Below are positions 1 through 15,127 of a DNA stretch of 57,605 nt, piece after piece (position 1 is the first letter of the stretch; every line of letters begins with the position of its first letter). Source of the DNA: Candidatus Abyssobacteria bacterium SURF_5 (GTDB lineage: Bacteria; Abyssobacteria; SURF-5); the NCBI GenBank assembly GCA_003598085.1, contig QZKU01000067.1:1-57605 (forward strand). The letters are read 5' to 3'. A program made the translations under genes and the position numbers. The notes below the pieces were generated by a model. It saw only the letters and a program-made list of their open reading frames with translations. It ran no database searches and had not been told where the DNA came from.

Positions 1-150
1 TTCAAGTATCCTCTTCAGACACTCGATATACAGGATTTAGTTCATGCTTTTCAATTATTTATGACTTTTTCTCACCCACAAATTCTCATGAGGACCCATT
101 TTTTTATTAGCGAAAATCAGCGAAATCCGAGGATAATCAGTTCACGTTCT

Positions 151-1191
151 TTAATCTTTCGTTGTGTCCACGGTCGGCACTACCGACATTCCCACCCTCA
201 GCACGTGCGGGTTCGGGTAGTCCTCCAGCACGATCTTCACCGGCACTCGCTGGACCACCTTTACGAAATTCCCCGTCGCGTTCTCGGGCGGAAACAGCGA
301 AAAGACCGCGCCGGTACCGGCCATGATGCTCTCGACTCGCCCTTTGATTTTGACACCCGGATAAGTATCGACCTCGATTTCGACCGGCTGGCCCACCTTG
401 ATTCGCTCGAGCTGAGTTTCCTTGTAATTCGCAACGATCCAGATGTCGTCGAGCGGGACAACCGACATCAGCGGCTGGCCCGGCTGGATGCGGTTGCCGA
501 CCTCGGCCGACTTGCGCGTGATATAGCCTTCAGACGGCGATCGGATTTCGGTATACTGCAGGTTCAGGCGAGCCTCATCCAGCTCCGCCTGCCGCTTCAG
601 CACGAGCGGGTGCATTCCCTCGACCGAGCCGAGTGCGGCCCGCGCCCGCTGCAGCTCCTCCTGCGCGGCCCTGACGGCCGCCTCCGAGACTCTTTTGCTG
701 GTTGTCGCTTTATCGTGCGCCTCTTTCGATGCGATCCCGCTTCTGGCCAGCTCCTCAGCCCGCCGCAAATCGACCTCAGCCTGGTTCAGCGTCGCCCTCG
801 CGTGGGCAAGCCGCGCCTCGGCCACCTGCACGGCGGCCTGCATCTGCGCGACCTCGTTCCTCGCAAGCTCGAGAGCGGCCTCCGAGTCGCGAACGGCGGC
901 CTCAAAAGTGGCAGGATCGAGCCGTACCAGCAACTGATCCTTCACCACCGATTCATTGTCGGTCACCAGAACTTCCGAAATCGTGCCGGGTACCCGCGAG
1001 CTGATCGAGTGGATGTGTCCGTGGACGTAAGCGTCGTCGGTCCGCACGTAGATCTGGGCCCTCCGCCAAAAGAAGAACGCGACAGCGACCGCGCATACGA
1101 CAAGCACGAGCAGGGTGGTAACCGCTATTTTCCTTCGGCTCGGCGGCTGCGCCGGCTGGCCGGATTTTTTCTCCTCACTCTCCCGATTCAT
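151..1191 (-). CDS. HlyD/EmrA-family membrane fusion protein
   Basis: This 346-residue protein is a periplasmic adaptor of an efflux system, linking an inner-membrane transporter to an outer-membrane channel. One membrane segment lies at about residues 21-42. It is followed by the typical TDDAYV motif, a biotinyl-lipoyl half-motif, a long Ala/Glu/Arg-rich coiled-coil hairpin (about residues 95-190), the second lipoyl half (residues PSEGYITRKSAEVGN) and a beta-barrel containing the NYKETQL motif of EmrA-like proteins. I chose the ATG at 1191 because GAGGAAAG lies just upstream on the minus strand; an in-frame start 14 codons earlier has no such site. The partner permease (EmrB-like) would be downstream, beyond the left edge, so substrate and full operon cannot be seen. 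The family call is secure; drug specificity is not. Confidence 0.9.
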   Translation of the reverse strand: MNRESEEKKSGQPAQPPSRRKIAVTTLLVLVVCAVAVAFFFWRRAQIYVRTDDAYVHGHIHSISSRVPGTISEVLVTDNESVVKDQLLVRLDPATFEAAVRDSEAALELARNEVAQMQAAVQVAEARLAHARATLNQAEVDLRRAEELARSGIASKEAHDKATTSKRVSEAAVRAAQEELQRARAALGSVEGMHPLVLKRQAELDEARLNLQYTEIRSPSEGYITRKSAEVGNRIQPGQPLMSVVPLDDIWIVANYKETQLERIKVGQPVEIEVDTYPGVKIKGRVESIMAGTGAVFSLFPPENATGNFVKVVQRVPVKIVLEDYPNPHVLRVGMSVVPTVDTTKD

Positions 1192-1821
1192 GATCTTTCC
1201 TCTAAAGTGCGATAGGGAAAGCCCCGGCTGCATTCCACAGCCGCCGGGCTTCCCCCCCTAAAAAAATCTTACCATGAAACCGGAGAAGCTTTCAACAGCG
1301 AAGGGGACTGACTCCCTTTACGGAATTCATGTCTTTTTGAATTCTGTCCCCGAAGCTAACCGAAAATACACCGCCGATTGAGCGAAGCGAAATCCCGCTC
1401 GCCCCGCGGGATCCCCGAAGCTAACAACCACCTGTTTCTCCACGGATTTTCTCGGATTAACTCGGATTACTTCAACCGCCGATGGACGCTGATAAACGCC
1501 GAAAATACACCGCCGGTTGAGCGAAGCAAAGGATCTCTCTTCCGCTGAGCGGAGAGCGAAGTCACGCGTCTCGCGTGATCATTCGTGCGCAGGTCGAAGG
1601 CAGAATCCGTTCTCCTGCCTTCTTGTAACCGCCGATGGACGCTGACGTGGCAGCGGGGCATGCTGTGACCGAAACAAGTGGCAAAACTTCCCATGCGTGA
1701 CGGAAGAAAAGGAGACATGAACCTTATGTCGGATTTTCGTGTCCTCGCTTTTCCATACGAGGATTTAAATATTCTGTGAGCGTTGCGCTCAATGATCGAT
1801 TGCCGCTTGGTGAAATAATTC
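1192..1821. other. Repeat-rich intergenic region
   Basis: No convincing gene is present. Besides the dispersed element at 1299-1356, a 30-bp direct repeat (CGAAAATACACCGCCG followed by TTGAGCGAAGC) occurs at 1361-1390 and 1500-1529. A CCGCCGAT-type repeat occurs at 1474-1503 and 1627-1646; it is the same family that brackets the GxxExxY gene at 14.7-15.1 kb. A minus-strand open frame over 1467-1838 is built largely from these repeats and has no recognisable product. Confidence 0.6.
1299..1356. repeat. Dispersed repeat copy 1 (GGGGAC...GTCCCC ends)
   Basis: A 58-bp element begins GCGAAGGGGACTGACTCC and ends CTGTCCCCGAAG, with two internal GAATTC sites around a T-run. A second, slightly diverged copy is at 25305-25376. 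The GGGGAC and GTCCCC ends are complementary, so it can fold into a hairpin. It looks like a REP-type intergenic element; no transposase of the RAYT type is in the window. Confidence 0.6.
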
Positions 1822-1851
1822 TTGACTAAATTTCCCATTTAATAGTATATT
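1822..1851 (+). promoter_or_regulatory. Sigma70-type promoter for the parB-like/dam pair
   Basis: TTGACT (1822-1827) and TATATT (1846-1851) are separated by 18 bp, and the ATG of the ParB-like gene is 42 bp past the -10 box. The match to consensus is good; use is inferred. Confidence 0.6.
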
Positions 1852-1892
1852 GGCGATATTCAGACAGCTTAATCTATATTCGGGAGGAAGCC

Positions 1893-3236
1893 ATGGCAGG
1901 TTATGACATTAAAGAAATCCCCCTTGCCAACTTGCTACTGGATGTTGAAAACCCACGCCATGATCTTGTCGAAAGCCAAAAAGGAGCAATTCAGGCTATG
2001 CTTGATGACCAGCAAGATAAGCTGCTTCATTTAGCAGAAGATATCATTGAAGCCGGTCCAAATCCTTCTGAGGCACTACTCGTTATTCCTCATCTAGGCA
2101 ATGCTAATTTGTATGTTGTGCTGGAGGGAAATCGTCGTATAACAGCTTTGAAAATCTTGGAAACGCCTGCAATTCTGGATGGGGATACTCCCCGACAACT
2201 GCGAGAAAAATTTCGAAAGCTAAGCCTTTTATACAAACGAAACCCTGTGGATCGAATTCCATGTGCGATTATGCAGAATAGAAAAGCCGCGGATAGATGG
2301 ATAAGGCTCAAACATACAGGCGAAAATCAGGGAAGAGGTGTTGTCGCATGGGGCGCAAAGGAAGTTGCTCGATTCAATGAAAGGCTTGGCAAAAAATCAC
2401 CCGCTCTTCAGGTTGTTGATTTTGTCAAAGATAAAATTGAAGCAAAAAGCGATTTACGTAAAAGGATTGAAGAAGTCTCTGTCACCAACCTTATGCGCTT
2501 ACTGAAGGATCCATACGTCAGGGAATTTCTTGGAATTGAGATTGCTGGAGGCGAAGTCAAATCCGATCTGCTGCCTGAAGAAACATTAAAAGGTCTGAAA
2601 AAGATTGTTATCGATTTAGCCGACAATCGAATTAACGTAAACGATATTAGATCAAAAACAGACAGGGTGGATTACATTGAGACGTTTCGAAAAGGAGATG
2701 TTCCCGATCGTTCAAAACAATCTGCGGCTCAGTGGGGCTTGGAATCCGCAAAAGAAAATGTTTTCGATGTGAAGAAGGAAACAACGGGAAAAAGAAGTAA
2801 ACCCGTATATACAAAGCGAAAGACTCTAATACCATCAAGTTTTATAATAAAGATTGATCACCCTAGAATCAACAGCATATATAGAGAATTGAAGAAACTG
2901 GATTTAGATGTATATCCAAATGCCGGCGCAATAGCGTTCCGGGTCTTCTTTGAGTTGAGCATTGATCATCATATCGAGAAAAATAATCTTCCCATTCATG
3001 AAAATTCAACATTAAGTAAGAAGGCGGAGGCGGTGATGACCGATTTAAAGAAGAAGAAGCTTCTCCAAGAGAATCAACTGAAGCCCATTCATGTTGCTAT
3101 CTCGAGTCCTCACTCGCTTCTCTCAATTGACACTATGCACGCATATGTCCATAATAAACATCTTCTTCCTAAGCCTAGAGAACTGAAGCAAGCTTGGGAC
3201 GAAATGCAGGAATTCGTGGAGAATTTATGGGCATAA
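1893..3236 (+). CDS. ParB/sulfiredoxin-fold N-terminal domain protein
   Basis: This 447-residue protein begins with a ParB-like nuclease/Srx-fold domain (about residues 5-110). Visible signatures are the opening IPLANLLLDVENPRHD, typical of the fold's first strand, and the LEGNRRITALK motif. The remainder is charged and not assignable. Proteins of this build are not chromosome-partitioning ParB; they occur on mobile elements and next to DNA methyltransferases. Here the gene sits one base before a Dam-like methylase, in the same direction and behind one promoter, so the two are probably a functional pair. GGGAGGAAG precedes the ATG. Base composition is clearly A+T-richer than in the flanking kilobases, suggesting transfer. 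Whether it cuts, nicks or only binds DNA or nucleotides cannot be told from sequence. Confidence 0.75.
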   Translation: MAGYDIKEIPLANLLLDVENPRHDLVESQKGAIQAMLDDQQDKLLHLAEDIIEAGPNPSEALLVIPHLGNANLYVVLEGNRRITALKILETPAILDGDTPRQLREKFRKLSLLYKRNPVDRIPCAIMQNRKAADRWIRLKHTGENQGRGVVAWGAKEVARFNERLGKKSPALQVVDFVKDKIEAKSDLRKRIEEVSVTNLMRLLKDPYVREFLGIEIAGGEVKSDLLPEETLKGLKKIVIDLADNRINVNDIRSKTDRVDYIETFRKGDVPDRSKQSAAQWGLESAKENVFDVKKETTGKRSKPVYTKRKTLIPSSFIIKIDHPRINSIYRELKKLDLDVYPNAGAIAFRVFFELSIDHHIEKNNLPIHENSTLSKKAEAVMTDLKKKKLLQENQLKPIHVAISSPHSLLSIDTMHAYVHNKHLLPKPRELKQAWDEMQEFVENLWA

Positions 3237-3237
3237 G

Positions 3238-4200
3238 ATGATGAGATACTACACGCCGTTGCGATATCCTGGCGGAAAAGGAAAACTGGCCGATTTCATT
3301 AAGTTGATAATCCGGGGAAATGGACTGCTTGATAGACATTATGCAGAACCATACGCCGGCGGAGCAGCGGTGGCGTTAAGTTTACTTTTTGATGAATATG
3401 TCTCCGAAATACATATCAATGATATCGATGAAACACTACATGCTTTTTGGCATTCCGTGTTGTACGAAACACGGGATTTGTGCACCTTGATAAGTAAAAC
3501 TCCAGTGACTCTCAAAGAATGGCATTGTCAAAAAAATGTTCAAGAGAATCCTAAAGGACATTCGAAATTGGAGATAGGTTTCTCGACATTCTTCCTCAAT
3601 CGCACAAATCGCTCAGGAATAATTACGGGCGGTGTCATTGGAGGAAAAAAACAGGAAGGAAAATGGAAAATTGGAGCGCGATACAATAAGAGTCAGCTGA
3701 TACATCGAGTACAAAAAATAGGAAAATACAAGGATAGAATTCACTTATACAATTTAGATGCTTTCATGTTTATTACATCTGTTCTTGAGCACCTTGACCA
3801 AAGGATGCTGGTTTATTTAGATCCTCCTTATCTAAAGAAGGGAAGAAGGCTTTATCGGAATAATTATCAATACAATGATCATGTAAAGATCTCTGACTTG
3901 ATTCGAGCACGACTTAAACAAAACTGGGTAATCTCATACGATTATTCTTCCGAGATATCTGCGCTCTATCATGATTATAATCAACTTATATATCAAATCC
4001 CCTACAGCGCAGGGAAAAGGTACAGAGGTTCCGAGGTTGTCATATATTCAAAAACCTTGACGATTCCGGCCTGTATTGACCCGTTGGAGGTGAATAGGAA
4101 ATCTCGCAACTCAAACGAGCTTGGGAAGATTCAAATTCAACTTCCGGTACCAAAGGTCGGAGGCCGTTGCCTCGATACCAAGGGGAGAAGCCGGGACTAA
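3238..4200 (+). CDS. Dam-like D12-class N6-adenine DNA methyltransferase
   Basis: This enzyme transfers methyl from S-adenosylmethionine to N6 of adenine in DNA. Class signatures are present in order: RYPGGKGKL near residue 9, EPYAGG at 37-42 (SAM-binding motif I) and DPPY at 195-198 (catalytic motif IV), then the late motif RGSEVVIYSK that normally lies close to the C-terminus. At 320 residues it is about 40 longer than usual; the tail after about residue 275 is not family-like and contains short inverted repeats at the DNA level, so it may be read-through into foreign sequence. It starts one base after the ParB-like stop, and both genes are A+T-rich. There is no restriction endonuclease beside it, so it may act as an orphan or mobile-element methylase, or with the ParB-like protein as a defence or anti-restriction pair. 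The recognition site is unknown. Confidence 0.9.
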   Translation: MMRYYTPLRYPGGKGKLADFIKLIIRGNGLLDRHYAEPYAGGAAVALSLLFDEYVSEIHINDIDETLHAFWHSVLYETRDLCTLISKTPVTLKEWHCQKNVQENPKGHSKLEIGFSTFFLNRTNRSGIITGGVIGGKKQEGKWKIGARYNKSQLIHRVQKIGKYKDRIHLYNLDAFMFITSVLEHLDQRMLVYLDPPYLKKGRRLYRNNYQYNDHVKISDLIRARLKQNWVISYDYSSEISALYHDYNQLIYQIPYSAGKRYRGSEVVIYSKTLTIPACIDPLEVNRKSRNSNELGKIQIQLPVPKVGGRCLDTKGRSRD

Positions 4201-4364
4201 GGAGGGCTTTATCATATCCTTTGCTAATGCAGAACTTGGATCGCAGCTTCAAAAAAAAGTGATCCAGATTTCAAAGAAGTGAAAAGCAGCAAGCCGGATC
4301 TGAATTTAAGGGAGAAGCGTCCAACAGGGACAATGAAAACATAAAACGGGAGAGGAGGGATAAC

Positions 4365-4768
4365 ATGGCATGCACATTGAATAAACCGGCAGGCACAGGA
4401 GGATGCACGCTAAATAAACCAAGAGGTAAGGGGGGATGCACGCTGAATAAACCCAAGGGTGCAGGTGCACCTTAAACCAACCACATGGAGAAGGCTCGGG
4501 TTGCACATTGAACCAGCCACATAATAAAGGTGCGGGATGCACGCTGAACCAGCCCCTCGGCAAGGGTGCAGGATGCACCCTTAATCAGCCTCTGGGTAAA
4601 GGCGCAGGATGCACTCTCAATAAACCTCTTGGGAGAGGCGGATGTACCCTGAATCAACCGGCTGGGAAAGGCGCAGGATGCACCATAAACAAACCTAACG
4701 CGGCTTGTATGTTGAATCATCCTCGCGGGAAAGGTGGTTGCACATTAAATAAACCTGAAGGAAGATGA
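4365..4768 (+). CDS. Cys-repeat peptide, putative multi-core RiPP precursor (split by a 1-nt deletion)
   Basis: A strong AGGAGG (4353-4358) lies six bases before ATG 4365. Reading gives Met-Ala and then tandem units of consensus CTLN-K/Q-P-x-GKG-A-G. The first frame stops at 4473-4475 after 36 residues. Frame +2 opens at TGC 4466 and continues the same repeats without a break to TGA 4766-4768. At the junction every other long unit reads GCAGGATGCAC but here it is GCAGGTGCAC, so one A appears lost. With that base restored the product is 134 residues with twelve units of 9-12 residues, starting at bases 4371, 4404, 4437, 4466, 4502, 4538, 4574, 4610, 4643, 4679, 4706 and 4739. Cys1, Asn4 and Pro6 are invariant. 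There is no leader or signal peptide. The stop overlaps the start of the radical SAM gene. I do not recognise a described family. Confidence 0.75.
4371..4765 (+). repeat. Twelve coding repeats of 27-36 bp
   Basis: The units repeat at the peptide level but vary in synonymous codons: Thr is written ACA, ACG, ACC and ACT, and Leu uses all six codons across units. Most unit lengths are multiples of three (33 or 36 bp; one 27 bp). The exception is unit 3 (4437-4465), which is one base short. This pattern means selection on the peptide, not recent DNA slippage. Confidence 0.85.
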
Positions 4769-5913
4769 CATCTAAGAACTTGTCAAATTCAGTTCATGAA
4801 GCCTTGTCTTGTGAGCTTTTGGTTACCACATTTTGCAACATGTCTTGTACTTACTGCCTCGCTCGGCACATGAATCCGGCCCATATGGATGAAGAACTCG
4901 GGAAAGCGGCTATTGACATGTTCATGTTTCTTAGTGAGGGTGCTAAGACGCTAGACATCACTTTTACGGGAGGAGAACCGCTCCTCAATCTCCCCCTAAT
5001 CAGGAAGCTGTCTCATTATGCAAAGATAAAAGCCGAAAAAGCCGGGGCAGAGATAGGATTTGTATTAAAGACGAATGGAATTATTCTGGATCACCAAATC
5101 ATGGACTTCTTAAAAAGTCTAAATTTCAAAGTTGTCATCAGTGTGGACGGTCTTCCTCAGACGCATGACATTTATCGGAAGGACCGCAATGGAGAAGCAA
5201 CACAGAAAAAAGTTGTCTCTAATCTCAAGGACCTCATAGCGAAAGGCGCTTCGTATGTTGCTAGTATCACTGTGCATCCGAATTGCGCAAGCGCTCTCTT
5301 GACTAATGTTCTCTACCTGCACGAGTCGGGAATTAAACAAATCGACATAGGTCCGGTCTACGGTACTGCCGAATGGACTGAGGAGACAATCTCGGAATTG
5401 GTAACTTCTATCCTGAACATCGCTGCTTACACGTGGAAGGTGAACAAGAACAAAAGCATTCTTGAAATTGGACCGCTCTACAAAAATTCCGAGCACGTAG
5501 GGGGAGGGCTTTCTGATTCTTGGGGGTGTGGTGCGGGATTTACGAATCTTGCTTTTCTGCCGAATGGGCAAATTACAGGTTGTAGCGCATTAGCTTATCT
5601 TGCTCCAAATTTTCCTTGGCTTATTTTAGGACATCTTAATAATGGTCTCGATGATTCAGCACTCAAACATTTCCTCGTACATTCTTTGGACAATATTGAA
5701 AATCGACCTCGATGCGCAGGCTGCAAAACCGCCCCTAACTGTACTGGCGGATGTCTTGCGATTAATCTCTCGACAACTGAATCCGCGCTTTTACCGCCTT
5801 CTATATACTGTCGAATGATTTCAACAATCCCAACCGCATGGAATGTAGCTTGGGGAGGCAGGTTTGAAGAAGCTAAAAATGAAGTTCCCCCCGTTTTTTG
5901 GACAGGTAGGTAA
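4765..5913 (+). CDS. Radical SAM/SPASM peptide maturase
   Basis: A 382-residue enzyme expected to cleave S-adenosylmethionine reductively and modify a peptide through a radical. The CX3CX2C cluster motif is C24, C28, C31 (in TTFCNMSCTYC), the GGEP motif is at 69-72, and a C-terminal SPASM region has C255, C273, C317, C320, C326, C330 and C349, enough for two auxiliary 4Fe-4S clusters. This layout is typical of maturases of sactipeptides, ranthipeptides and related RiPPs. The ATG overlaps the stop of the Cys-repeat gene (ATGA), implying translational coupling and making that peptide the likely substrate. No transporter, protease or RRE protein is adjacent, and no N-terminal RRE domain is evident. 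The last ten residues may come from the end of the IS3 element that follows. The class is firm; the substrate is inferred from linkage. Confidence 0.9.
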   Translation: MTSKNLSNSVHEALSCELLVTTFCNMSCTYCLARHMNPAHMDEELGKAAIDMFMFLSEGAKTLDITFTGGEPLLNLPLIRKLSHYAKIKAEKAGAEIGFVLKTNGIILDHQIMDFLKSLNFKVVISVDGLPQTHDIYRKDRNGEATQKKVVSNLKDLIAKGASYVASITVHPNCASALLTNVLYLHESGIKQIDIGPVYGTAEWTEETISELVTSILNIAAYTWKVNKNKSILEIGPLYKNSEHVGGGLSDSWGCGAGFTNLAFLPNGQITGCSALAYLAPNFPWLILGHLNNGLDDSALKHFLVHSLDNIENRPRCAGCKTAPNCTGGCLAINLSTTESALLPPSIYCRMISTIPTAWNVAWGGRFEEAKNEVPPVFWTGR

Positions 5914-5960
5914 GCTATAATATTGGAGCTTGAGAAGGTCCAGAGAACGGGAGAGAGTGC

Positions 5961-6239
5961 ATGGCGAAGAAGCGGAGAAAGCACAGCGACGAGTTCAAAG
6001 CGAGAGTGGCGTTGGAAGCAGTTCGAGGGGTGAAGACGCTGAGCGAATTGAGCTCCACCTATGGCGTGCACCCGACGGTGATCGCGCAGTGGAAGCGGCA
6101 ACTCCTTGATGGCGCAGCCGGAGTTTTCAGCCGGGCAAATGGCACGAACGGCAGAAGCGAAGAAGAGATCAGCGCGCCCTTGTACGAGGAGATCGGGCGC
6201 CTGAAAGTAGAATTGGACTGGCTCAAAAAAAAGCTCTAA
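5961..6239 (+). CDS. IS3-family transposase OrfA
   Basis: This 92-residue protein has the N-terminal helix-turn-helix of IS3 OrfA (KKRRKHSDEFKARVALEA, then YGVHPTVIAQWKRQLL) and a C-terminal leucine-zipper-like helix. It ends at an A8 run followed by a stop, the usual place for -1 frameshifting into OrfB; the -1 frame does continue into orfB here. An AGAGAG-type ribosome site precedes ATG 5961. Alone it binds DNA but cannot transpose, since the orfB catalytic part is missing. Confidence 0.9.
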   Translation: MAKKRRKHSDEFKARVALEAVRGVKTLSELSSTYGVHPTVIAQWKRQLLDGAAGVFSRANGTNGRSEEEISAPLYEEIGRLKVELDWLKKKL

Positions 6240-6596
6240 GCGTTCCTCGCGAGGTCAAACGGACATGGATCAATCCATCGCACAAAAAGCTCTCTGTGGC
6301 CATGCAGGGCGCTCTGGTCGGCCTCTCTCGTTCCAGCTATTATCACGAGCCGCCGTCGGGAATCGAGAGCGAAGAGAATCTCGCGTTGATGCGAGTGATC
6401 GACGAGTTGTATCTCAAGCGGCCGTTCTACGGAGCGCCGCGGATGACTCACTGGCTCATGGAAATCGGGTACCGGGTCAACCACAAGCGCGTGGAGCGGC
6501 TGACGCGCTTGTGGGGGCTGTCCCGCCGTTGGAGGGATCCCTGGGCCACATACGAGTCGTCCACACCCGGAGCATCTGGTGTATCCATACCTGCTA
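6230..6596 (+). pseudogene. IS3-family transposase OrfB, truncated
   Basis: The -1 frame entered at the A8 run gives a typical OrfB start (VKRTWINPSHKKLSVAM), then LSRSSYYHEPP and FYGAPRMTHWLMEIGYRVN, the HTH_21 region. A second frameshift occurs near 6520-6530: the family sequence SRPHPEHLVYPYLL continues in another frame from about 6543. Everything after that Tyr-Leu-Leu, including the whole DDE integrase core, is absent. The copy is dead. Confidence 0.85.
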
Positions 6597-9500
6597 GTGC
6601 TGTGGGACCTTGTGAAACCACCTGGTCTCCAAGCTTGTAACTAGCTTCAATGGCGCCTCATTCATATCGGCCCCGCGCACTCGCCAAAATACGTAGGAAT
6701 TATTCGGTATCCTGTTCCAGATAGTGATTGGCATTGACCAGTTTTCCTGACGGATAAGCAAATGCAGATGTTCATATGTCGAATAATAGGTCGTGAAACC
6801 TGGTGAAAAACTAAAATCAACGGCGAAAACATTCTCAATGCCTCCATCCGGTGACCAAACAAAAACTGGAGGCGAAGATAAATCTACTTGATCTGAAGGA
6901 GATTCCAAATAGATTTCAGTCAGTCCGGGACAGTCAGGGTCGTCTCTGTCGGCAAAGCCATCACAGTCGTTATCAAGCCCGTCGACACACGCCTCCGGAA
7001 CCGGCTGGCCTTCATCACAGGTATCTACCTGCTCGCCCCCCTGACAGCCAAGGTCGCCTGTCGAGGCGCATTCACCCACTCCGCAACTAGTTTGCTGGGC
7101 ATACCATTCCTCATCGACGCCGTCGTCTGTTGTAAAGCCATCGCAGTCATTGTCCAGCTTGTCGCACAGTTCGGGTCCGGCGCCCTCAAAGGGGTCGCAG
7201 ACCTGCGGCACGCCGTCTATGCAATTATCGATAGTATGCTCGCAAACACCTAAACCGCATGTTGTATATCCTAGATCATCCGCCTCGTCATTTAAGCCAT
7301 CACAGTCGTTATCGAGGGTATCACAAACCTCTATCGATGGGACGCCTTCGGTACATGTATCTACCTGCACGCCCGCCTGACATTCAAAGTCACCTTCGGC
7401 CGCGCATTGGCCAACGCCACAGCTTGTCGGTTGATTATACCAGGGCTCGTCAATGCCATCGGCCGTTACCGCATTGCAGTCGTTATCGATGCCGTCGCAG
7501 ATTTCAAGAGCAGTTGGAGTAACCGTGTCACAGGCATCTCCGACACCGTTAAAGTTGCAATCCTCTTGATAGGGATTATAGGTGTTGATGCAGTTGTCAT
7601 CGCATCCTTCCACCATGCCTCCTGTGCACGGGTAATCACCTGTCACAGTGCTGCCGTCACCATCGTCTAATACACCGTCGTTGTCGGAATCCGTTGTCCC
7701 CAGAACCACCTCTATTATCACCGTCGAATAACAGGGAGCCCTGTCGTAAACCGGAACTCTCTCGTCAGGGTCGATTGCGATTTGGAAATTATGAGATCCA
7801 ACAGATAGCGGATCAAACTCGCATGGAGGGAGCGCCGAAGCTTCTCCGGCCAGGAGTTGCGGAACAACTATCGTGCAGGACTGTCCATCGTCTGCCTCGA
7901 TGACTACGTCAAAGTCATTGGCATCGGCATCACCATCTTCGTTTGAGATGGTTGCGGTAAGGGACGGATTATCATCATTCGTAAGTGGTGAAGGACTGAC
8001 GACTACTGCTTTCGTACTTAGTTGAGCTTTGAGTGTAGATGGATCAACAGTTTCGAAGATGAAGGCATATGTCGCTCCCTCGGCCGCTTCAACAATTTGA
8101 TACTGACCGGCGATACCGCTAAATTTCACATACGCCTCGAGAGTGTTTGTTGTCGGCAATCCCGGTAATGGCCAGCCATCATTGGTTTCTTCGTATCTAT
8201 ATGTATCACCAGGATTGAAGACCCTTGCTGGAACAAAAGTATGAGAAGCAAAATTCTTCGTGTAAATACTCCCCCACTGATCCACACATTCAGCTTGAAC
8301 CTGAAACCTATCAACGGCCTTGGGCGAAGAGCCATAGTACTGAACCTCAAAAAAAGCTGTGTAGACACTACTTGTCACGTAGGGCGGGTCTTCAAGTAAG
8401 CCGATACCGCTTATGATTGTGAATTCCACCTCCGGATCTGGTTCTGGGGGTGGCGGTGGTTCCGGCGGATCCTCGGACAGGGTCTTTACCACGAGGAGAT
8501 TGCTGCGAGCAACTTCCTCAAAAGTTGCTGTTAACGCAACAACTTGAATTCCATAGGAGGTGTCAGGTTCAAGCGGACCAAATGACCATGTGTCGGCTCC
8601 GTTTATCGGGCCCTGAGCCTGTCCATTTAGGTAAGTTTCATAAAACGGAGCCCAGGAAAGATCTTCCCATCTGATGTCAATATATGTTCTTCCGACATCT
8701 TCGGCAAAGACAGTGATTCTCGGCTCCTCCTCCGGAATGATTATTTTTGCCTCGTTTGACGACCCCAAGAAGGTCCCGTCATGGTCCACTGCCGCTATTT
8801 GATAACTCACCTCCGTCTCCGGTTTAACGCCATTATCATAGATGATAGAATCTGAAGTAGGGGTAAATGCAAAACCATTACGGATTAGACGGTAAAAAGG
8901 AGCGCCATAGGGATCCAGTTGGACAGATATCTTTGCCTGAAAGGGCGACACAGCTTCGGCGGAAATAATGAGATCTTCATAGCCGCCCAGCGCTATTTCA
9001 AAGCACGCCAGATTAAATACATTTACGTCGACACCGTCCCATATCATGTAGCCGCCTTCAAAATCTTGCTGGGTCGGGATCGAAACACCGTTGATAAAAA
9101 ATTCTCTTGAAGTCGGGCAGCCTAATTTGACCCCGTCACCTACGTCCATATCTGGGCCGCCATTGTATCGGTATTTGTTCCAGAAACGTCCGTGAAGCGA
9201 AAACGCTTCCAGCGCACCTGGTTTATACATGATGCAACACTCTCCCAGATCGCCACCATCGAAGTTCTGTATCCAATAGTTCCACCACGTATGCGCCTGT
9301 TCCGGGTACCCCGCATCGCTATATACATTACCAAGAGACACAGCTCTGCCATGGTCGTTATATGCCTGGACAATGAAGGGGCTTACAGCGGGATCCCAAC
9401 CCCGCTCCGTCTCTCCTGCGCATACTTCGTTTTCATACAGATACTCAGCGACGCCACCCGTTACAGGGTAGTAGAGTTTAAATTTATTTCGAAAGTCTTG

Positions 9501-10301
9501 TCTTTGGAACGTTTGGTATTGGTAAAGTGGGGTGATTGCAAACTCCTCGATAGAAAGAACCTTGAATATGGGATTTTCGGGATACCGTCCTCGCACGTGA
9601 GGGGTCACAGGTAACACCATGTCGAGACCAATGTCGCTTATATTGTAAATTACGTTTTGCCCGTTATAATGACTTCCCCAGCCGGGCTCATTATAGTCTC
9701 CGTAAGGATCATTTACTATGATCCGATTTGGCGCGTCAGTACCCACAATTACGAAATAGTGACAGATTGCACCGGGATCGTCACATTCCAGACCAATTTT
9801 CATGTGTCCTACTAGGGGCCGGCCTTCATTCAACTCTTGCTCAATTTCAGCCATTAGATTTGTATAGGTCCATGAATCAGGAACATCAAAGCTGTGATTA
9901 CTCAGATAGCTCGCAATTTTCGTGGGATCGGTTCCCCAATACCCGCCGCCAGCATCAACAATAATGTAATTATGAGCCCCGGCAGATTCATTTCCATCAC
10001 AATCGTACGCCCAACGTGCGGTATAATCTTGTCCGGAGAAGTCCTTGAATCCATCATAGCCGTTATAGATATACCACCCCTTGTAATCGCTGAGATTATC
10101 AGGCAATAAGCCATAGTAATTCGCTAGCATCACGGAGCACGTAGGACCACATGCATTACAGCCGTAAAATACCCTCCGTTCCATATCCAATACCTGATGA
10201 ATGTATGGAACATCCAGCGACACGCACTGTTGAGCTTGAGCGGTGTTGACTGAAAGTATTGAGAAGAGGATAATAGCTGCCAAACTGCGTGCCATTCGCA
10301 T
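6594..10301 (-). CDS. Secreted C39-like cysteine peptidase with FN3 and MopE-type repeats
   Basis: A 1235-residue exported protein. A signal peptide (about residues 1-22, ending TAQA) leads to a C39-like papain-fold domain with the Cys motif ACGPTC near residue 48, a later CHYFVIVG (His) and VNDPYG (Asp). There follow a long region of unknown fold, FN3-like segments, a Pro-rich linker, a thrombospondin-3-like calcium stretch (DSDNDGVLDDGD) and four MopE-type LDNDCDG/IDNDCN Cys-Asp repeats. The last 109 residues (6597-6923) match the C-terminus of the M6 protease at 16446. I chose ATG 10301 for its GGAGG six bases away and a clean signal peptide. The stop codon and final few residues appear to come from the IS3 remnant. 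Probably a surface or secreted hydrolase or adhesin; substrate unknown. Confidence 0.8.
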   Translation of the reverse strand: MRMARSLAAIILFSILSVNTAQAQQCVSLDVPYIHQVLDMERRVFYGCNACGPTCSVMLANYYGLLPDNLSDYKGWYIYNGYDGFKDFSGQDYTARWAYDCDGNESAGAHNYIIVDAGGGYWGTDPTKIASYLSNHSFDVPDSWTYTNLMAEIEQELNEGRPLVGHMKIGLECDDPGAICHYFVIVGTDAPNRIIVNDPYGDYNEPGWGSHYNGQNVIYNISDIGLDMVLPVTPHVRGRYPENPIFKVLSIEEFAITPLYQYQTFQRQDFRNKFKLYYPVTGGVAEYLYENEVCAGETERGWDPAVSPFIVQAYNDHGRAVSLGNVYSDAGYPEQAHTWWNYWIQNFDGGDLGECCIMYKPGALEAFSLHGRFWNKYRYNGGPDMDVGDGVKLGCPTSREFFINGVSIPTQQDFEGGYMIWDGVDVNVFNLACFEIALGGYEDLIISAEAVSPFQAKISVQLDPYGAPFYRLIRNGFAFTPTSDSIIYDNGVKPETEVSYQIAAVDHDGTFLGSSNEAKIIIPEEEPRITVFAEDVGRTYIDIRWEDLSWAPFYETYLNGQAQGPINGADTWSFGPLEPDTSYGIQVVALTATFEEVARSNLLVVKTLSEDPPEPPPPPEPDPEVEFTIISGIGLLEDPPYVTSSVYTAFFEVQYYGSSPKAVDRFQVQAECVDQWGSIYTKNFASHTFVPARVFNPGDTYRYEETNDGWPLPGLPTTNTLEAYVKFSGIAGQYQIVEAAEGATYAFIFETVDPSTLKAQLSTKAVVVSPSPLTNDDNPSLTATISNEDGDADANDFDVVIEADDGQSCTIVVPQLLAGEASALPPCEFDPLSVGSHNFQIAIDPDERVPVYDRAPCYSTVIIEVVLGTTDSDNDGVLDDGDGSTVTGDYPCTGGMVEGCDDNCINTYNPYQEDCNFNGVGDACDTVTPTALEICDGIDNDCNAVTADGIDEPWYNQPTSCGVGQCAAEGDFECQAGVQVDTCTEGVPSIEVCDTLDNDCDGLNDEADDLGYTTCGLGVCEHTIDNCIDGVPQVCDPFEGAGPELCDKLDNDCDGFTTDDGVDEEWYAQQTSCGVGECASTGDLGCQGGEQVDTCDEGQPVPEACVDGLDNDCDGFADRDDPDCPGLTEIYLESPSDQVDLSSPPVFVWSPDGGIENVFAVDFSFSPGFTTYYSTYEHLHLLIRQENWSMPITIWNRIPNNSYVFWRVRGADMNEAPLKLVTSLETRWFHKVPQH

Positions 10302-10670
10302 TTTGTGCCTCCGATTTCCTGCCCCGCACACGTAGTTTTCAATTTTGCGGAAGCTCAATGAGCAAGAAAGCTTCTTATCAAGATACACTTAAATTAAAGC
10401 CTATAACATATACAACACTTTGAATGTACATGTCAAGAAATTTATTTTGAATGTCCTTTGCAGATGGTAACTCCTCTAGCACGCCAGATAGAAATGCTCT
10501 CCCGGGAGGGGGGGTTTGCCGGTTGCGCCGTCGACTCGTTTCGGCGTAATGCGCGGATTGAGGCCAATGTTTTCACTACGGATTTTCACGGATATTCAGG
10601 GATTGGAGAGGCAGGCCGCAGGCTGTAGTCGAGGCGCCATGGCCATAGTAGGAGGAAGAAAGACACCTAT
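10302..10670. other. Intergenic region without a recognisable gene
   Basis: The part nearest 10301 is the leader of the C39-like gene. Around 10574-10597 there is a TACGGATTTTCACGGATATT segment of the same flavour as CACGGATTTTCTCGGATTAA at 1441-1460, a degenerate dispersed repeat. I see no promoter of good quality or coding frame. Confidence 0.4.
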
Positions 10671-11067
10671 TCATTGCAGTGCGTCTAGAACACCTGCGCG
10701 TACTTTGCACGCGAGCTCGACGGTTTTGCGGGCTTCGTCAGGCGTCGCATCCGGACGATCTCCCGGATACCGCAACTCAACTCCATAGGGCGTGAGCACG
10801 ATTACATCACGTGATGAAGCAGCAAGGTTCGCATTGCAAGTCTCGGCAAGATCCAACAGTTCTTTCGTGTGTTTTTGGGAATGCTACCTGATGTGATGTC
10901 AAGAAGGCCTTCAAATATTTTTCGGCGGCTTGTTGACTGTGAAAAGCAATAGAGTTGGCGAAAGCGGCGCCCTCCGCCATCAAATGTTCAGCCAAGTCCG
11001 TGTCGGAATCAGCCTTGCGAAGCCATTCAGCGATAAGCTTACGCTTGATGTCCTCAGGCGGCCTCAT
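10671..11067 (-). pseudogene. HEPN-domain protein, frameshifted
   Basis: The N-terminal half reads as a HEPN protein (SQQAAEKYLKAFL is the family signature) from ATG 11067 to the TH of FPKTH. A one-base insertion near 10870 then breaks the frame, and the rest (KELLDLAETC through YPGDRPDATPDEARKTVELA) continues in the neighbouring frame to 10671. HEPN proteins of this kind pair with MNT nucleotidyltransferases as toxin-antitoxin modules; the MNT remnant overlaps its start. Both halves are decayed, so the module is probably inactive unless the frameshift is an assembly error. Confidence 0.7.
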
Positions 11068-11290
11068 AGATCACTTTCCCGTATCTGTTGGCTGGATAGG
11101 CGATGCCGCCGATGACATCTTTGCTTTCCTCAAACCACTGTTTGGAGATGAGAATAATATCAAAAGGATGCCCCATGCCTCTGAGCGAGCGACGAATCTG
11201 AACGTAGTATTGTTGCCTGTCCGTCAGGTACTGGTTTTTGCCCCTTTTGAAGATCTCGTATTCCAATTTGTTTCTCAAGCACCCAGCTTT
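11054..11290 (-). pseudogene. MNT-type nucleotidyltransferase, 3' remnant
   Basis: Only the C-terminal part of a minimal nucleotidyltransferase is recognisable (RSLRGMGHPFDIILISKQWF, then IAYPANRYGKVIYEAA). The GSx10DxD catalytic motif that should lie upstream is missing. Its stop overlaps the HEPN start by 14 bases, the usual arrangement of MNT-HEPN pairs. The 5' boundary is uncertain, and from 11291 to 11601 I see no gene. Confidence 0.55.
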
Positions 11291-11601
11291 GCACTTGTTC
11301 CTCAAAAGTCCCCTACAACGTCCAATCGGGACCGACATCGGCTCGATCAAAATTGTCAGCAAAAACCACCACGGACGCCACCTGGGAAGCTATGCGAAAG
11401 AATTTAACCCGACAGGATAATGTTTGTCAAGCGAAAAATGTTCCATCCCCATTTCCGCGAACACTCAAAGCGCGCGTGACAAGCCAGCGCGAATTCTATG
11501 TTACTCGCCATTCCTTCTTTGGCTTTGGTATTGTCGAAGAGGGGCGCGAATCGAACAGACGGCAGGGGACGGATCGAAGAAGGAATCTGGATTTACTTGA
11601 A

Positions 11602-12906
11602 TCATTTCTTTCTCTTAAAAACCTCCAGCAATTTCTCAACCACGTTTGACGCGTGCGCCACATGAAGCGCCTTATGTACGGTTTCCTGGACAGAAGGCTC
11701 CTGCAGCAGCGCCTGCAAAATGTGGCGCGCATCTGGCGCCGGAGCTCCGTCCTGTTCGGACAATGAGCGCGCCAGCGCCATGACCCTCTGGGCCGAACGC
11801 TTGAACCGAACATTCTTTGGTATCTCTGCCTTCTCCTTGTGCTCAATGCAGCACCGAAGGTTCTCGGCGAAATCTATCGCGTCCACCTTGGTCTCCTGAA
11901 GCCAGCACGAGAATGTCTCCCGCTCGTTCGATGCGATCGACATAAGCAAATGCATTGGATCAACCATGTCGATGCCCGAGGCTGCGGCCTCCCTTTCCGC
12001 CGCATCGAGAATTCGGCTCAGACAAACATTGGCGTCCGCATCCTTTCTTGTAGTTCCATCCATCTGCAAGGTTCCGACGATTGCCATGACATCCGCAAAA
12101 TCTTGAACTCGATCTTCGGGCTTTTTTTCCAGGCACTGCATGAGCATCTTTGAAAAGCCCTCCGGCAAATCCTTTCGTAATTCCGCCGGAGCAACGGGAA
12201 CTGCTGTCTTGATCTTTTGGGCCAGCTCATTCCAGTTGCTGCCGACGAACGGCGGAGTCGCGCACGAAAGATGATACATCAGCGCCCCGAATGAATAGAT
12301 GTCGGTCCGCTTGTCAACTTCGTGAGGACAATCAAATTGTTCAGGCGATACGTAGGGAAACGTGCCGAGCATGTCGCAGGTTCCGGTGAGGACCGTGCTG
12401 TCGACAGCGCGCGCTATCCCGAAATCCGAAATCTTGATTGTGCCGTTTCGGTCAAGCATCACGTTCGCCGGCGTCAGGTCTCGATGAACGATGCCGCGAA
12501 TTCCGTCCGGCGTCATGCAGTTATGGACATACACGAGGCCGGTGGCAATCTCTTCCGCAATCTGCAGGAGCCGTTCGACCGGCAACAATGCCCTCTTCTT
12601 TATGAAGTCGAAAAGAGAGCCGCCCTCGACCCATTCCATGAAGAGGAAGGGACGCCCCTCGATCTCTTTCACCGAGTAAGCCCGTACAATGTTCGGATGA
12701 CTGCCGATGGCGACCCATATCTTCATTTCGCGCCGGAAACGGGCTACCATCGCGGCATCCTTCAGAAACTCGTCGCGCACGGTCTTGGCCGCCCGCCTCT
12801 CGCCGGTTTCAATATGCTCCAGCAGATACACGTATGCCATCCCGCCGCCGAGAAGATTAGTTATTCGATACCGCTCATCAAGAATCTGTCCGATCTGTTT
12901 TGCCAT
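11602..12906 (-). CDS. Ser/Thr protein kinase fused to a Clp N-terminal-type domain
   Basis: Residues about 12-270 form a Hanks-type kinase: Gly-rich loop LGGGMAYVY, the Lys of AAKTV, catalytic HRDLTPANVM and DFGIA, then YVSPEQ and the DIYSFG helix. Residues about 285-430 have two repeats resembling the Clp_N domain of ClpA/ClpB/ClpC: AAEREAAASGIDMVDPMHLLMSI and, later, FKRSAQRVMALARS followed by ARHILQALL. No transmembrane segment or PASTA domain is present, so this is a cytosolic kinase. In ClpC the N-domain binds adaptors or phospho-arginine-marked substrates, so the fusion may direct phosphorylation to proteins in the proteostasis system; that is inference. The start ATG has only a weak AAGAGA upstream. 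No cognate phosphatase is adjacent. Confidence 0.88.
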   Translation of the reverse strand: MAKQIGQILDERYRITNLLGGGMAYVYLLEHIETGERRAAKTVRDEFLKDAAMVARFRREMKIWVAIGSHPNIVRAYSVKEIEGRPFLFMEWVEGGSLFDFIKKRALLPVERLLQIAEEIATGLVYVHNCMTPDGIRGIVHRDLTPANVMLDRNGTIKISDFGIARAVDSTVLTGTCDMLGTFPYVSPEQFDCPHEVDKRTDIYSFGALMYHLSCATPPFVGSNWNELAQKIKTAVPVAPAELRKDLPEGFSKMLMQCLEKKPEDRVQDFADVMAIVGTLQMDGTTRKDADANVCLSRILDAAEREAAASGIDMVDPMHLLMSIASNERETFSCWLQETKVDAIDFAENLRCCIEHKEKAEIPKNVRFKRSAQRVMALARSLSEQDGAPAPDARHILQALLQEPSVQETVHKALHVAHASNVVEKLLEVFKRKK

Positions 12907-13135
12907 ACTTCATATCTCTTGTTCCTTGGTACCCATTCGTTTGAGGCGGTTTCTATCTCTCATTTTTTTTGTTCCAAAGCATGTTGGTGCGCTCTCGCCC
13001 CCTGCGCCGTAATCCATTTGCTGCTTCGCGTCTTGAAATCTTGCCGCCTGGCTTCATCAAGCCTTGCCTCCGCTCAAACTCTCGCATAAAGTTGCAATTC
13101 AGTATAGACGAAATACGCTCATATGTGCAAAGACC

Positions 13136-13164
13136 TTGACAACCAATTTACCCGCTGTTAGTAT
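13136..13164 (+). promoter_or_regulatory. Sigma70-type promoter
   Basis: TTGACA (13136-13141), 17 bp, TAGTAT (13159-13164), 40 bp ahead of the TPR ATG. Good consensus; function inferred. The 12907-13135 stretch before it shows no gene I can support. Confidence 0.6.
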
Positions 13165-13204
13165 CATTCATAGCTTATTGGTTAAAAACTGGCACAAATG
13201 TTAT

Positions 13205-13831
13205 ATGGACTTGATTTCCTCTCTCGAAACGAAGATTCTCCAGAATCCGAATGAACCTTCCCTTTACTACAGCCTCGGGAAGGCCTTTCTCGCCCAAAGA
13301 GACTTGAAGCTGGCGGCGGCATCCTTCAAGAAAGCGGCCTCCCTCGCGCCCAAAGAGGTCAGGTATCACCTGCGGCTCGGTCAGGTATGTGTGAAAATGC
13401 GGCAGCCCGAGTCGGCAATCCGCGAATATAATGCGGTCCTCGCCGTCGACCCCGACAACATCAGCGCGCACATGCACTTGGGCCTCATCTTCGAGTTCTT
13501 CTGCTTCTGGCCTTCTGGAATGACAAAGGAAATTTTCCGCGCTGTCAAGAGTTCTTTTGACTTTTCCTTCGCTGCCGGTTTAGAATATCTGGCAACGGCG
13601 ACCCTCAGAAGCGATTCAATCGAAGCAGAACTTCCTGCGCAACTAAATCAATTCAATATCTTCGCAGATGAAACGTCATCAGACACGGCGCAATTTCTTG
13701 CAGACACTGCCTCTTTTCCCTGCCGGAATGTGGGCGGCCGCACAGAGCGGCGCTTCCGAACAATCGGCGGCGAAACCGTCATGGAACGCAAAAGTCATCG
13801 TTGCTCAGCGGCCATCGCTCCTGAACCCTGA
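13205..13831 (+). CDS. TPR protein, probably truncated at its 3' end
   Basis: From ATG 13205 the first ~97 residues form tetratricopeptide repeats: YYSLGKAFLAQRDLKLAAASF, then YHLRLGQVCVKMRQPESAIREY and the start of a third (AHMHLGLIFE). After that the repeat pattern is lost and the frame runs 164 bp into the DUF362 gene, which is read in another frame. The tail is therefore probably not native: the gene was cut or frameshifted around 13490. It is likely a small scaffolding protein; no partner can be named. Confidence 0.55.
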   Translation: MDLISSLETKILQNPNEPSLYYSLGKAFLAQRDLKLAAASFKKAASLAPKEVRYHLRLGQVCVKMRQPESAIREYNAVLAVDPDNISAHMHLGLIFEFFCFWPSGMTKEIFRAVKSSFDFSFAAGLEYLATATLRSDSIEAELPAQLNQFNIFADETSSDTAQFLADTASFPCRNVGGRTERRFRTIGGETVMERKSHRCSAAIAPEP

Positions 13832-14669
13832 CAAAACACCCGCTGGCGACAAGATCAAAAAAATTCTGGACGAAGCTGTTGTCGCTTTATCCGGAAAATC
13901 GGACGCCTCCTCCGCATGGAAAAGCTTTTTTTCTTCAGGCGATGTGGTCGGCATCAAGGTGAACTGCCTCGCCGGACGCGACCTGTCGAGCCATCCCGAA
14001 CTCGTTGCGGCCATTGTTGAGGGAGTGGCGTCGGCCGGAATCCCGAAAGAAAAAATCATTGTCTGGGATCGGACCGAGCACGACCTGCTATCGGCGGGGT
14101 TCTCACTAAAAGGCCTCGACGGCGCGCGGGTTTTAGCAACCGATTCGCGCGGCGCCGGCTACGAGTCCGATATCGAATTCTCCGGCGAGATCGGCTCCTG
14201 TTTCAGCAGGATCATCTCGCGCATCTGCACGGCAATCGTTAATGTGCCCGTCCTGAAGGACCACGATCTGGCCGGCGTCTCGCTCGGCATGAAGAACTTC
14301 TACGGCGCAATCCACAATCCGAACAAGTATCACGACAACAACTGCAATCCGTTCGTGGCGGACCTGTGCGCGCACCCGTACATCAAAAACAAGCTGCGGC
14401 TGGTCGTGTGCGACGGCCTGATCGCGCAGTATCATGGCGGCCCGGCTCCGCGCCCGCAATGGGCATGGCCCGCAGCCACGCTGCTTGTGGCTGACGATCC
14501 CGTCGCCGCGGACAAAATCGGTTGGGACATCATCGAGCAAAAGCGAAAAGAAAAAGGGATGAAACCGCTGAAGGAAAGCGGCCGCGAACCGAAGTACATC
14601 GAAACGGCGGAAGAGCGGGGATTGGGAACCGCCGATCCAGGAAAGATCTCAAAACTTTCTGTCTCTTAG
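13668..14669 (+). CDS. Tat-exported DUF362 domain protein
   Basis: A 333-residue protein opening with a twin-arginine motif (TRRNFLQ, residues 6-12) and a hydrophobic stretch. It has the DUF362 core: GDVVGIKVNCLAGRDLSSHP, then VWDRTEHDLLSAGF, an NVPVLKDHDLAGVSLGMKNFY segment and a C-terminal VADDPVAADKIGWDII. DUF362 proteins often accompany iron-sulfur or radical SAM genes, and here a Tat-type AmmeMemoRadiSam enzyme follows after an inserted GxxExxY cassette. The biochemical role is unknown. No good ribosome site precedes the ATG, but the Tat motif fixes the start. Confidence 0.8.
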   Translation: MKRHQTRRNFLQTLPLFPAGMWAAAQSGASEQSAAKPSWNAKVIVAQRPSLLNPDKTPAGDKIKKILDEAVVALSGKSDASSAWKSFFSSGDVVGIKVNCLAGRDLSSHPELVAAIVEGVASAGIPKEKIIVWDRTEHDLLSAGFSLKGLDGARVLATDSRGAGYESDIEFSGEIGSCFSRIISRICTAIVNVPVLKDHDLAGVSLGMKNFYGAIHNPNKYHDNNCNPFVADLCAHPYIKNKLRLVVCDGLIAQYHGGPAPRPQWAWPAATLLVADDPVAADKIGWDIIEQKRKEKGMKPLKESGREPKYIETAEERGLGTADPGKISKLSVS

Positions 14670-14697
14670 GCCTGAAACAGGGAAAAGAAAGAAAGGG

Positions 14698-14717
14698 AAC
14701 CGCCGATGAACGCCGAT
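14698..14717 (+). repeat. Left arm of 20-bp inverted repeat around the GxxExxY gene
   Basis: AACCGCCGATGAACGCCGAT. The exact reverse complement occurs at 15102-15121. Related sequences are at 1474-1503 and 1627-1646. Confidence 0.85.
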
Positions 14718-15085
14718 TGGATTTGGATCGATTAACGGAAAGAATAATTGGATGCGCATATACAGTCAGCAATACACTCGGAGCCGGATTCGTTGAAAAG
14801 GTCTATGAAAACGCTTTGGCGATTGAATTGCGGAAGGCTGGCATAAGAAGGCAACAACAGTTCCCCATCAAGGTAAAATATGAAGGCGAAGTAGTTGGCG
14901 ATTTTACAGCAGATATAATGGTTGAAGATACTGTTATCCTGGAACTAAAGGCAGTTCGCGCGTTCGATGAAGGACATGTTGCGCAGTGTATGAATTATTT
15001 AAGAGCCACGGGTTTTCCAATATGCCTACTCATTAACTTCGGCAAACCAAAAGTTGAAGTAAAAAGAATTGTTCAAGATTTTTGA
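14717..15085 (+). CDS. GxxExxY family protein
   Basis: About 122 residues if it starts at TTG 14717 (TTG 14723 is an alternative; no ATG fits). The family signature is clear: the GxxExxY segment GAGFVEKVYENAL, then QQFPIKVKYEGEVVGDFTAD, VILELKAVRAFDEGHVAQ and CLLINFGKPKVEVKRIV. The Asp and the Glu-x-Lys placement resemble a PD-(D/E)XK nuclease core (FTAD ... LELK). The role is unknown; such genes are scattered in environmental genomes. The gene is bracketed by a perfect inverted repeat, whose left arm overlaps the start, and it lies between two Tat-signal genes that would otherwise be adjacent. Confidence 0.8.
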   Translation: MDLDRLTERIIGCAYTVSNTLGAGFVEKVYENALAIELRKAGIRRQQQFPIKVKYEGEVVGDFTADIMVEDTVILELKAVRAFDEGHVAQCMNYLRATGFPICLLINFGKPKVEVKRIVQDF

Positions 15086-15101
15086 TCAAATATCGGCGTT
15101 T

Positions 15102-15121
15102 ATCGGCGTTCATCGGCGGTT
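15102..15121 (-). repeat. Right arm of 20-bp inverted repeat around the GxxExxY gene
   Basis: Exact reverse complement of 14698-14717. It ends six bases before the ATG of the radical SAM gene and thereby takes the place of a normal ribosome binding site. A further partial copy of the unit precedes it at 15092-15101. Confidence 0.85.
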
Positions 15122-15127
15122 GAAACA

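Follow-up and report, generated by a model that had tools for sequence, protein, structure and literature searches.

What does a chain built almost wholly of short cysteine-containing repeats do when its gene runs straight into that of a radical SAM/SPASM enzyme? Such a pair lies in the 57,605-nucleotide stretch of Candidatus Abyssobacteria DNA that we analysed, hereafter the window. The initial annotation had proposed a leaderless twelve-fold repeat peptide matured by the adjoining enzyme, perhaps through a thioether in every repeat, and had taken the motif as not known from any described family. We consider it probable that the pair is a rare two-gene leaderless RiPP-like cassette in which a PapB/SCIFF-related enzyme modifies the repeat units of a chain of about 128 aa. 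That the first gene encodes the substrate of the adjoining enzyme is the part of this reading in which we have strong confidence.

The twelve units start at positions 4371, 4404, 4437, 4466, 4502, 4538, 4574, 4610, 4643, 4679, 4706 and 4739 and follow one another at spacings of 27, 33 or 36 nt, all multiples of three, except for the 29 nt between units 3 and 4 (Table 1). When the 5.1-Mb genome was searched with a one-unit pattern, all 10 matches fell at the array, compared to 0 for the reversed control. Most of what had been noted from the sequence is borne out: each unit has one Cys, Cys1, Asn4 and Pro6 are invariant in 12 of 12 units (24 of 24 when the relative described below is included), the TGA stop of the array overlaps the ATG of the maturase in an ATGA at 4765–4768, and a leader is absent, the first unit beginning at residue 3 in both arrays.

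Table 1. Features of the repeat cassette and its neighbours (window coordinates)
Feature	Position	Strand	Evidence
PD-Lambda-5_A-like defence protein, neighbour	1893..3236	+	PADLOC E 1.2e-155
PD-Lambda-5_B-like adenine methyltransferase, neighbour	3238..4200	+	PADLOC E 8.1e-121; Pfam MethyltransfD12 E 7.9e-18
Shine-Dalgarno-like stretch gagaggaggg	4351..4356, approximate	+	upstream of ATG 4365; sequence gagaggagggataacATGGCA
5' part of the repeat gene as assembled, units 1-3, 36 aa	4365..4475	+	ORF from ATG, TAA 4473-4475
Twelve CTLN-[K/Q/H]-P units with Gly-rich spacers	4371-4768	+	sequence
Unit 3/unit 4 junction, one base short	4437..4466	+	29 nt vs 30 nt in L032
Units 4-12, -1 frame, ending in TGA at the maturase ATG	4466..4768	+	sequence
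Radical SAM/SPASM maturase, 382 aa	4765..5913	+	CxxxCxxC at 24-31, seven auxiliary Cys, no N-terminal RRE
IS3-type transposase remnant, neighbour	5961..6640	+	Pfam HTH_Tnp_1 E 5.5e-9, HTH_21 E 6.1e-13

The array had also been taken for a single, strongly initiated ORF of twelve units. The initiation signal is indeed strong, with GGAGGG preceding ATG 4365, but the frame opened by this ATG covers units 1–3 only (MACTLNKPAGTGGCTLNKPRGKGGCTLNKPKGAGAP, then a stop), while units 4–12 lie in the −1 frame. The last upstream stop of the −1 frame is at 4448, the frame is open from 4451 and its first possible start is a TTG at 4508. Inspection of the overlap revealed neither a canonical −1 slippery heptamer nor a long homopolymer. 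Programmed −1 frameshifting was rejected on this ground and because the frame of the relative is intact without any shift. As far as can be seen from the DNA, the break would stem from a genuine frameshift mutation or from faulty draft assembly rather than from a programmed event, and unless the assembly is at fault the system may be inactive in the window genome.

To look for relatives we scanned one genome per species, 84,980 species in all, with a two-unit DNA pattern (CT-[L/I/V/F/M]-N-[K/Q/H/N]-P, the leading unit of each pair being required to use TGC), a design by which looser motifs are missed. Eleven stretches were found; ten are chance matches with no repeat ORF in any of them, and one, L032 (CADDYS010000015.1), is a true relative. 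Its array is an intact 128-aa ORF of twelve units that is preceded by GAGGAG and starts ATG GTC TGT ACT ATT AAT (M-V-CTIN). It is by the length of its junction between units 3 and 4 that the window array is judged to be one base short. Since both arrays share the start M-x-C-T, the lack of a leader cannot be an artefact peculiar to the window copy. Six bases after the L032 array begins a maturase 47 % identical to that of the window over 334 residues, at which point the contig ends. The pairing of peptide and radical SAM/SPASM enzyme is thus conserved at both known loci (2 of 2), and so is the arrangement by which a RiPP class is recognised, a dedicated precursor gene paired with its modifying enzyme. 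Homologous maturases lacking such repeats had been named as evidence against the proposal; in a partial search of this kind, the sole homologue found with more than about 31 % full-length identity does have adjoining repeats (n = 2). Since the twelve units recur, unbroken and identically ordered, in a second and unrelated genome, we conclude that the family is real though rare.

The two arrays correspond unit for unit and in order. The paired spacers (window/L032) begin with PAGTGG/PAGTGG, PRGKGG/PRGTGG, PKG.../PKGGG and PHG.../PHG... and finish with PNAA/PNAT, PRGKGG/PRGKGG and PEGR/PEGK. Over the whole array the spacers share 32 identities in the observed order, whereas 100,000 shuffled orders averaged 20.8 and never exceeded 31. 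Across the 24 units Cys1, Asn4 and Pro6 never vary and Thr2 is found in 23. Only L, I or V occurs at position 3 (mostly Leu in the window, Ile/Val in L032), and position 5 is mostly Lys/Gln. Asp is absent from all units, and besides a few His there is no aromatic residue in or after the CTxNxP motif. Among the units of the window array pN/pS amounts to 0.10 (0 within units 1–3, 0.11 within units 4–12) and among those of L032 to 0.06, in comparisons where synonymous sites are saturated; it is 0.12 between the window and L032. With pN/pS of about 0.1 or less in both arrays, selection has acted on each unit separately. Judged by sequence comparison, the array is old, its unit number and order have been retained, and each unit has been under selection, also past the frame break.

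These data bear on whether the window locus still functions. It may instead be a cassette of real ancestry that is decaying as a pseudogene within a mobile defence island and has no present function, a reading to which we give somewhat less than even chances. It would account for the one-base break after unit 3, for the IS3 remnant directly downstream, which begins about 50 bases past the maturase stop, and for the low GC content of the neighbouring defence genes and the maturase (0.41–0.45 vs 0.54 for the window). On the other hand, units 4–12 keep both their low pN/pS and the stop/start overlap beyond the break, and the maturase is intact, which argues that the break is recent, or not real but a draft-assembly error within a repeat.

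The surroundings of the two loci are alike in one respect: the cassette is co-directional with, and just downstream of, genes for DNA modification or defence. In the window the PD-Lambda-5 A and B pair (GC 0.41) looks complete and lies directly upstream; in L032 a XamI-type restriction-modification pair is upstream in the same direction and a serine recombinase is nearby. The cassette has probably moved horizontally, and carriage on mobile islands would fit these surroundings. No tRNA that could serve as an integration site was found in the window, and no known RNA family in window positions 1–16000. One might suppose from the shared position that the cassette contributes to the activity of the defence systems next to it. 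We regard this as very unlikely, because the PD-Lambda-5 and XamI-type systems are unrelated to each other, the association stands at n = 2, and defence islands gather unrelated cargo. For lanthipeptide clusters, colocalisation with exchange and defence genes is treated in PMC12715929. In L032 a short zinc-ribbon protein (MPTTGEKPGKGTYKCTNCGQ...CPKCSG; about 1709–1849, minus strand) occupies the gap that separates the CTIN repeat gene from the methyltransferase; we noticed no counterpart of it in the window.

How rare is the cassette? A protein scan of genome contigs with the window maturase found none, no further member was present in 386 diverse genomes or in 397 genomes near L032, and the maturase was not found in two genomes of the host's family. 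On viral contigs the fixed-spacing repeat DNA pattern gave 0 matches against 8 for the positive control, and the maturase profile gave only segments at 23–37 %; a viral pattern match at L023 has no repeat ORF and was set aside as chance. In the phage and plasmid collections, tblastn with the maturase gave only matches below 60 % identity (21–32 % among the matches listed), and the repeat peptide gave no member. A text search of the literature for the motif gave nothing on topic among the matches listed.

The enzyme itself is as first described. The radical SAM/SPASM ligand set is complete, consisting of the cluster cysteines C24/C28/C31 and seven auxiliary ones (C255, C273, C317, C320, C326, C330 and C349), and all are present in L032 except the last, which is lost to the contig end. 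The best named profiles are, in order, PapB, QHNDH maturase, nif11-type and SCIFF, all below their cut-offs, and the best PDB sequence match is 5wgg (phmmer E 8.8e-24), which we take to be the SCIFF maturase CteB. The AlphaFold2 model of the maturase was set aside (pLDDT 46). In a tree of 20 maturases, a small set with long branches, the window and L032 enzymes are each other's closest neighbours (100/100) within a five-row group (98/97) that also includes L040, L041 and L066.

In PapB-, SCIFF- and sactipeptide-type maturases, substrate recognition is generally ascribed to an RRE that holds the leader. Both cassette enzymes have only 23 residues before the first cluster Cys, which thus stands at residue 24 in the window maturase compared to residue 77 at least in the listed relatives whose sequence is not truncated at a contig or locus boundary. 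With the first cluster Cys so early, the RRE is missing from the maturase, and no separate RRE gene was noticed beside either copy.

The closest likeness is to PapB, the maturase of PapA/PapB (freyrasin; NF047865), whose profile is covered from 4 to 326 of 330 (E 9.7e-56), and in both cases one enzyme faces several Cys-based sites in a peptide. The scores of 189.4 bits for the window and 162.9 bits for the partial L032 enzyme are nevertheless below the 340-bit NCBIfam cut-off. An RRE and a leader belong to the PapB system, which links CX3D, whereas the cassette has neither and offers CX2N. None of the marks of the PapB family (340 bits, an N-terminal RRE, a precursor with leader and CX3D/E) is found, the precursors starting with M-A/V-C and carrying C-T-L/I-N. 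Because the 386 genomes contain no NF047865 member over the cut-off, they provide no true PapB precursor for comparison. The radical SAM/SPASM layout is shared with SCIFF maturases (ScfB, TIGR03974) and CteB-like relatives. The cassette enzyme reaches 138 bits there against a cut-off of 425, the SCIFF peptide is short and has six Cys, unlike the repeat peptide, and the SCIFF maturases compared have the radical SAM motif about 94–111 residues into the frame. The CXXX-repeat maturase family (TIGR04115) likewise combines a radical SAM/SPASM enzyme with a repeated Cys target, but the score is 90.8 bits against a cut-off of 350. Taken together, the claim of a new family holds insofar as the maturase matches no family over the cut-off in the libraries used; a Cys-repeat peptide beside a PapB/SCIFF-like enzyme is, however, a known kind, and the cassette is therefore a variant of it. 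A likeness of the repeat to JDVT-CTERM was dismissed as chance (11–12 of 35 positions, no stretch passing alone).

Two of the cassettes in the five-row group, L040 and L041, weakly resemble CefB (NF038107) and also have repeated single-Cys motifs adjoining the enzyme. They differ in their Cys spacing of about five residues with aromatics, in a leader-like N-terminal stretch in L040 and in the size of their maturases. The latter, of 429 and 439 aa, score below all NCBIfam cut-offs (L040:1276-2562 with 3565-3858; L041:3-137 with 395-1711), and the peptides with Cys about every fifth residue read FDCPGFFDCP... and FKCYTGFNCTGRFSCTG.... They are possibly an unnamed ranthipeptide-like family.

We propose the following mechanism for the cassette. 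Gene 1 would encode a leaderless chain of about 128 aa with twelve C-T-(L/I/V)-N-(K/Q)-P-(x-G-x-G)-G units, and gene 2 a PapB/SCIFF-related radical SAM/SPASM enzyme that, having no RRE, would read the repeat unit in place of a leader; with neither leader nor RRE, recognition must lie in the unit. The enzyme would abstract a hydrogen and join each Cys sulfur to a carbon within that Cys's own unit, with the invariant Asn4 as the favoured acceptor, and the outcome would be up to twelve small thioether rings per chain. A Cys thioether within the unit is our best guess since Cys and Asn are invariant, aromatics are scarce and thioether formers are among the nearest named relatives. The thioether suggested at the outset stands by analogy with those relatives, the nearest profiles including PapB- and SCIFF-type maturases, and we rate it slightly above even. 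Asn as the acceptor is more tentative, with less than even chances. PapB cross-links Cys to Asp/Glu with 0–6 residues between and is described as carboxylate-binding (PMC9413430), and Asn has no carboxylate, unlike the group that PapB binds; ruminococcin C does use Asn as an acceptor (PMC8188230). Removal of the RRE from ThnB, PapB and RumMC2 abolished or impaired cross-linking (PMC8188230), and the RRE-less enzyme may work differently from these three. The two loci known comprise one broken precursor and one maturase cut by a contig end. In its most specific form, an RRE-independent leaderless system in which each unit is both recognition site and core and twelve Cys-to-Asn (i, i+3) thioether staples work as a whole, the proposal is unlikely to hold in every part. 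If it does, a naturally occurring relative that dispenses with both RRE and leader would reveal how a target is read from the core alone, and would provide a simple one-enzyme route to many staples in a repeat peptide. With two genes, the system is also small and amenable to E. coli.

Alternatively, the enzyme may carry out another reaction: a thioether to another residue or to an adjacent unit, a C–C bond, an epimerisation, or a cyclopropane on the Leu/Ile/Val at position 3. The chemistry of radical SAM/SPASM enzymes is diverse, and TvgB acts many times on the repeated TVGG motif of TvgA to make cyclopropylglycine (PMC9062424), a precedent that the restriction of position 3 to L, I or V would fit. 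TvgA/TvgB nevertheless differs from the cassette in its motif, which has no Cys, in its product and in its five-gene cluster. A position that is mostly Leu in one array and Ile in the other is a poor target for one specific C–H reaction, the Cys is invariant in 24 of 24 units and the nearest profiles include several enzymes that form Cys thioethers; a cyclophane is further argued against by the near absence of aromatics. We therefore hold another reaction to be unlikely.

The fixed unit number and order suggest that the functional product is probably the whole chain rather than excised units. A conserved order suits a folded repeat protein equally well, and twelve units in fixed order would be unusual for excised cores. 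The repeat protein may accordingly be a small beta-solenoid, each unit giving a strand (CTIN) and a turn (QPxGxG) with ladders of Cys and Asn, which the enzyme staples or modifies and whose role is that of a folded rod and not of a secreted peptide. AlphaFold2 drew the chain as twelve evenly spaced strands, solenoid-like (pLDDT 65, pTM 0.59; two-row alignment). The nearest fold matches, all non-significant, include bactofilin, CAP, ice-binding proteins, a lipase and other repeat-built beta proteins, and tblastn with the peptide gives weak compositional matches to autotransporter and VWA proteins. Yet no PDB fold matches at E <= 0.001, AlphaFold2 readily draws solenoids for tandem repeats, here from two rows, and the adjoining radical SAM/SPASM gene points to modification. 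We consider the folded rod improbable; the modelled solenoid would be either a rival of the RiPP reading or a complement to it.

Returning to the RiPP-like cassette, a point against it is that it holds no transporter or peptidase gene. Radical SAM proteins are numerous in the genome (65 matches), and a second one, of 394 aa, lies at 15128–16312 of the window, some distance from the cassette. Near the cassette but outside it, at 6594–10388 on the minus strand, is a protein of 1264 aa that combines a C39-like peptidase domain with a MopE-type metal-binding motif. As GG or AG closes most of the spacers ahead of the next Cys, a peptidase link to the cassette is conceivable.
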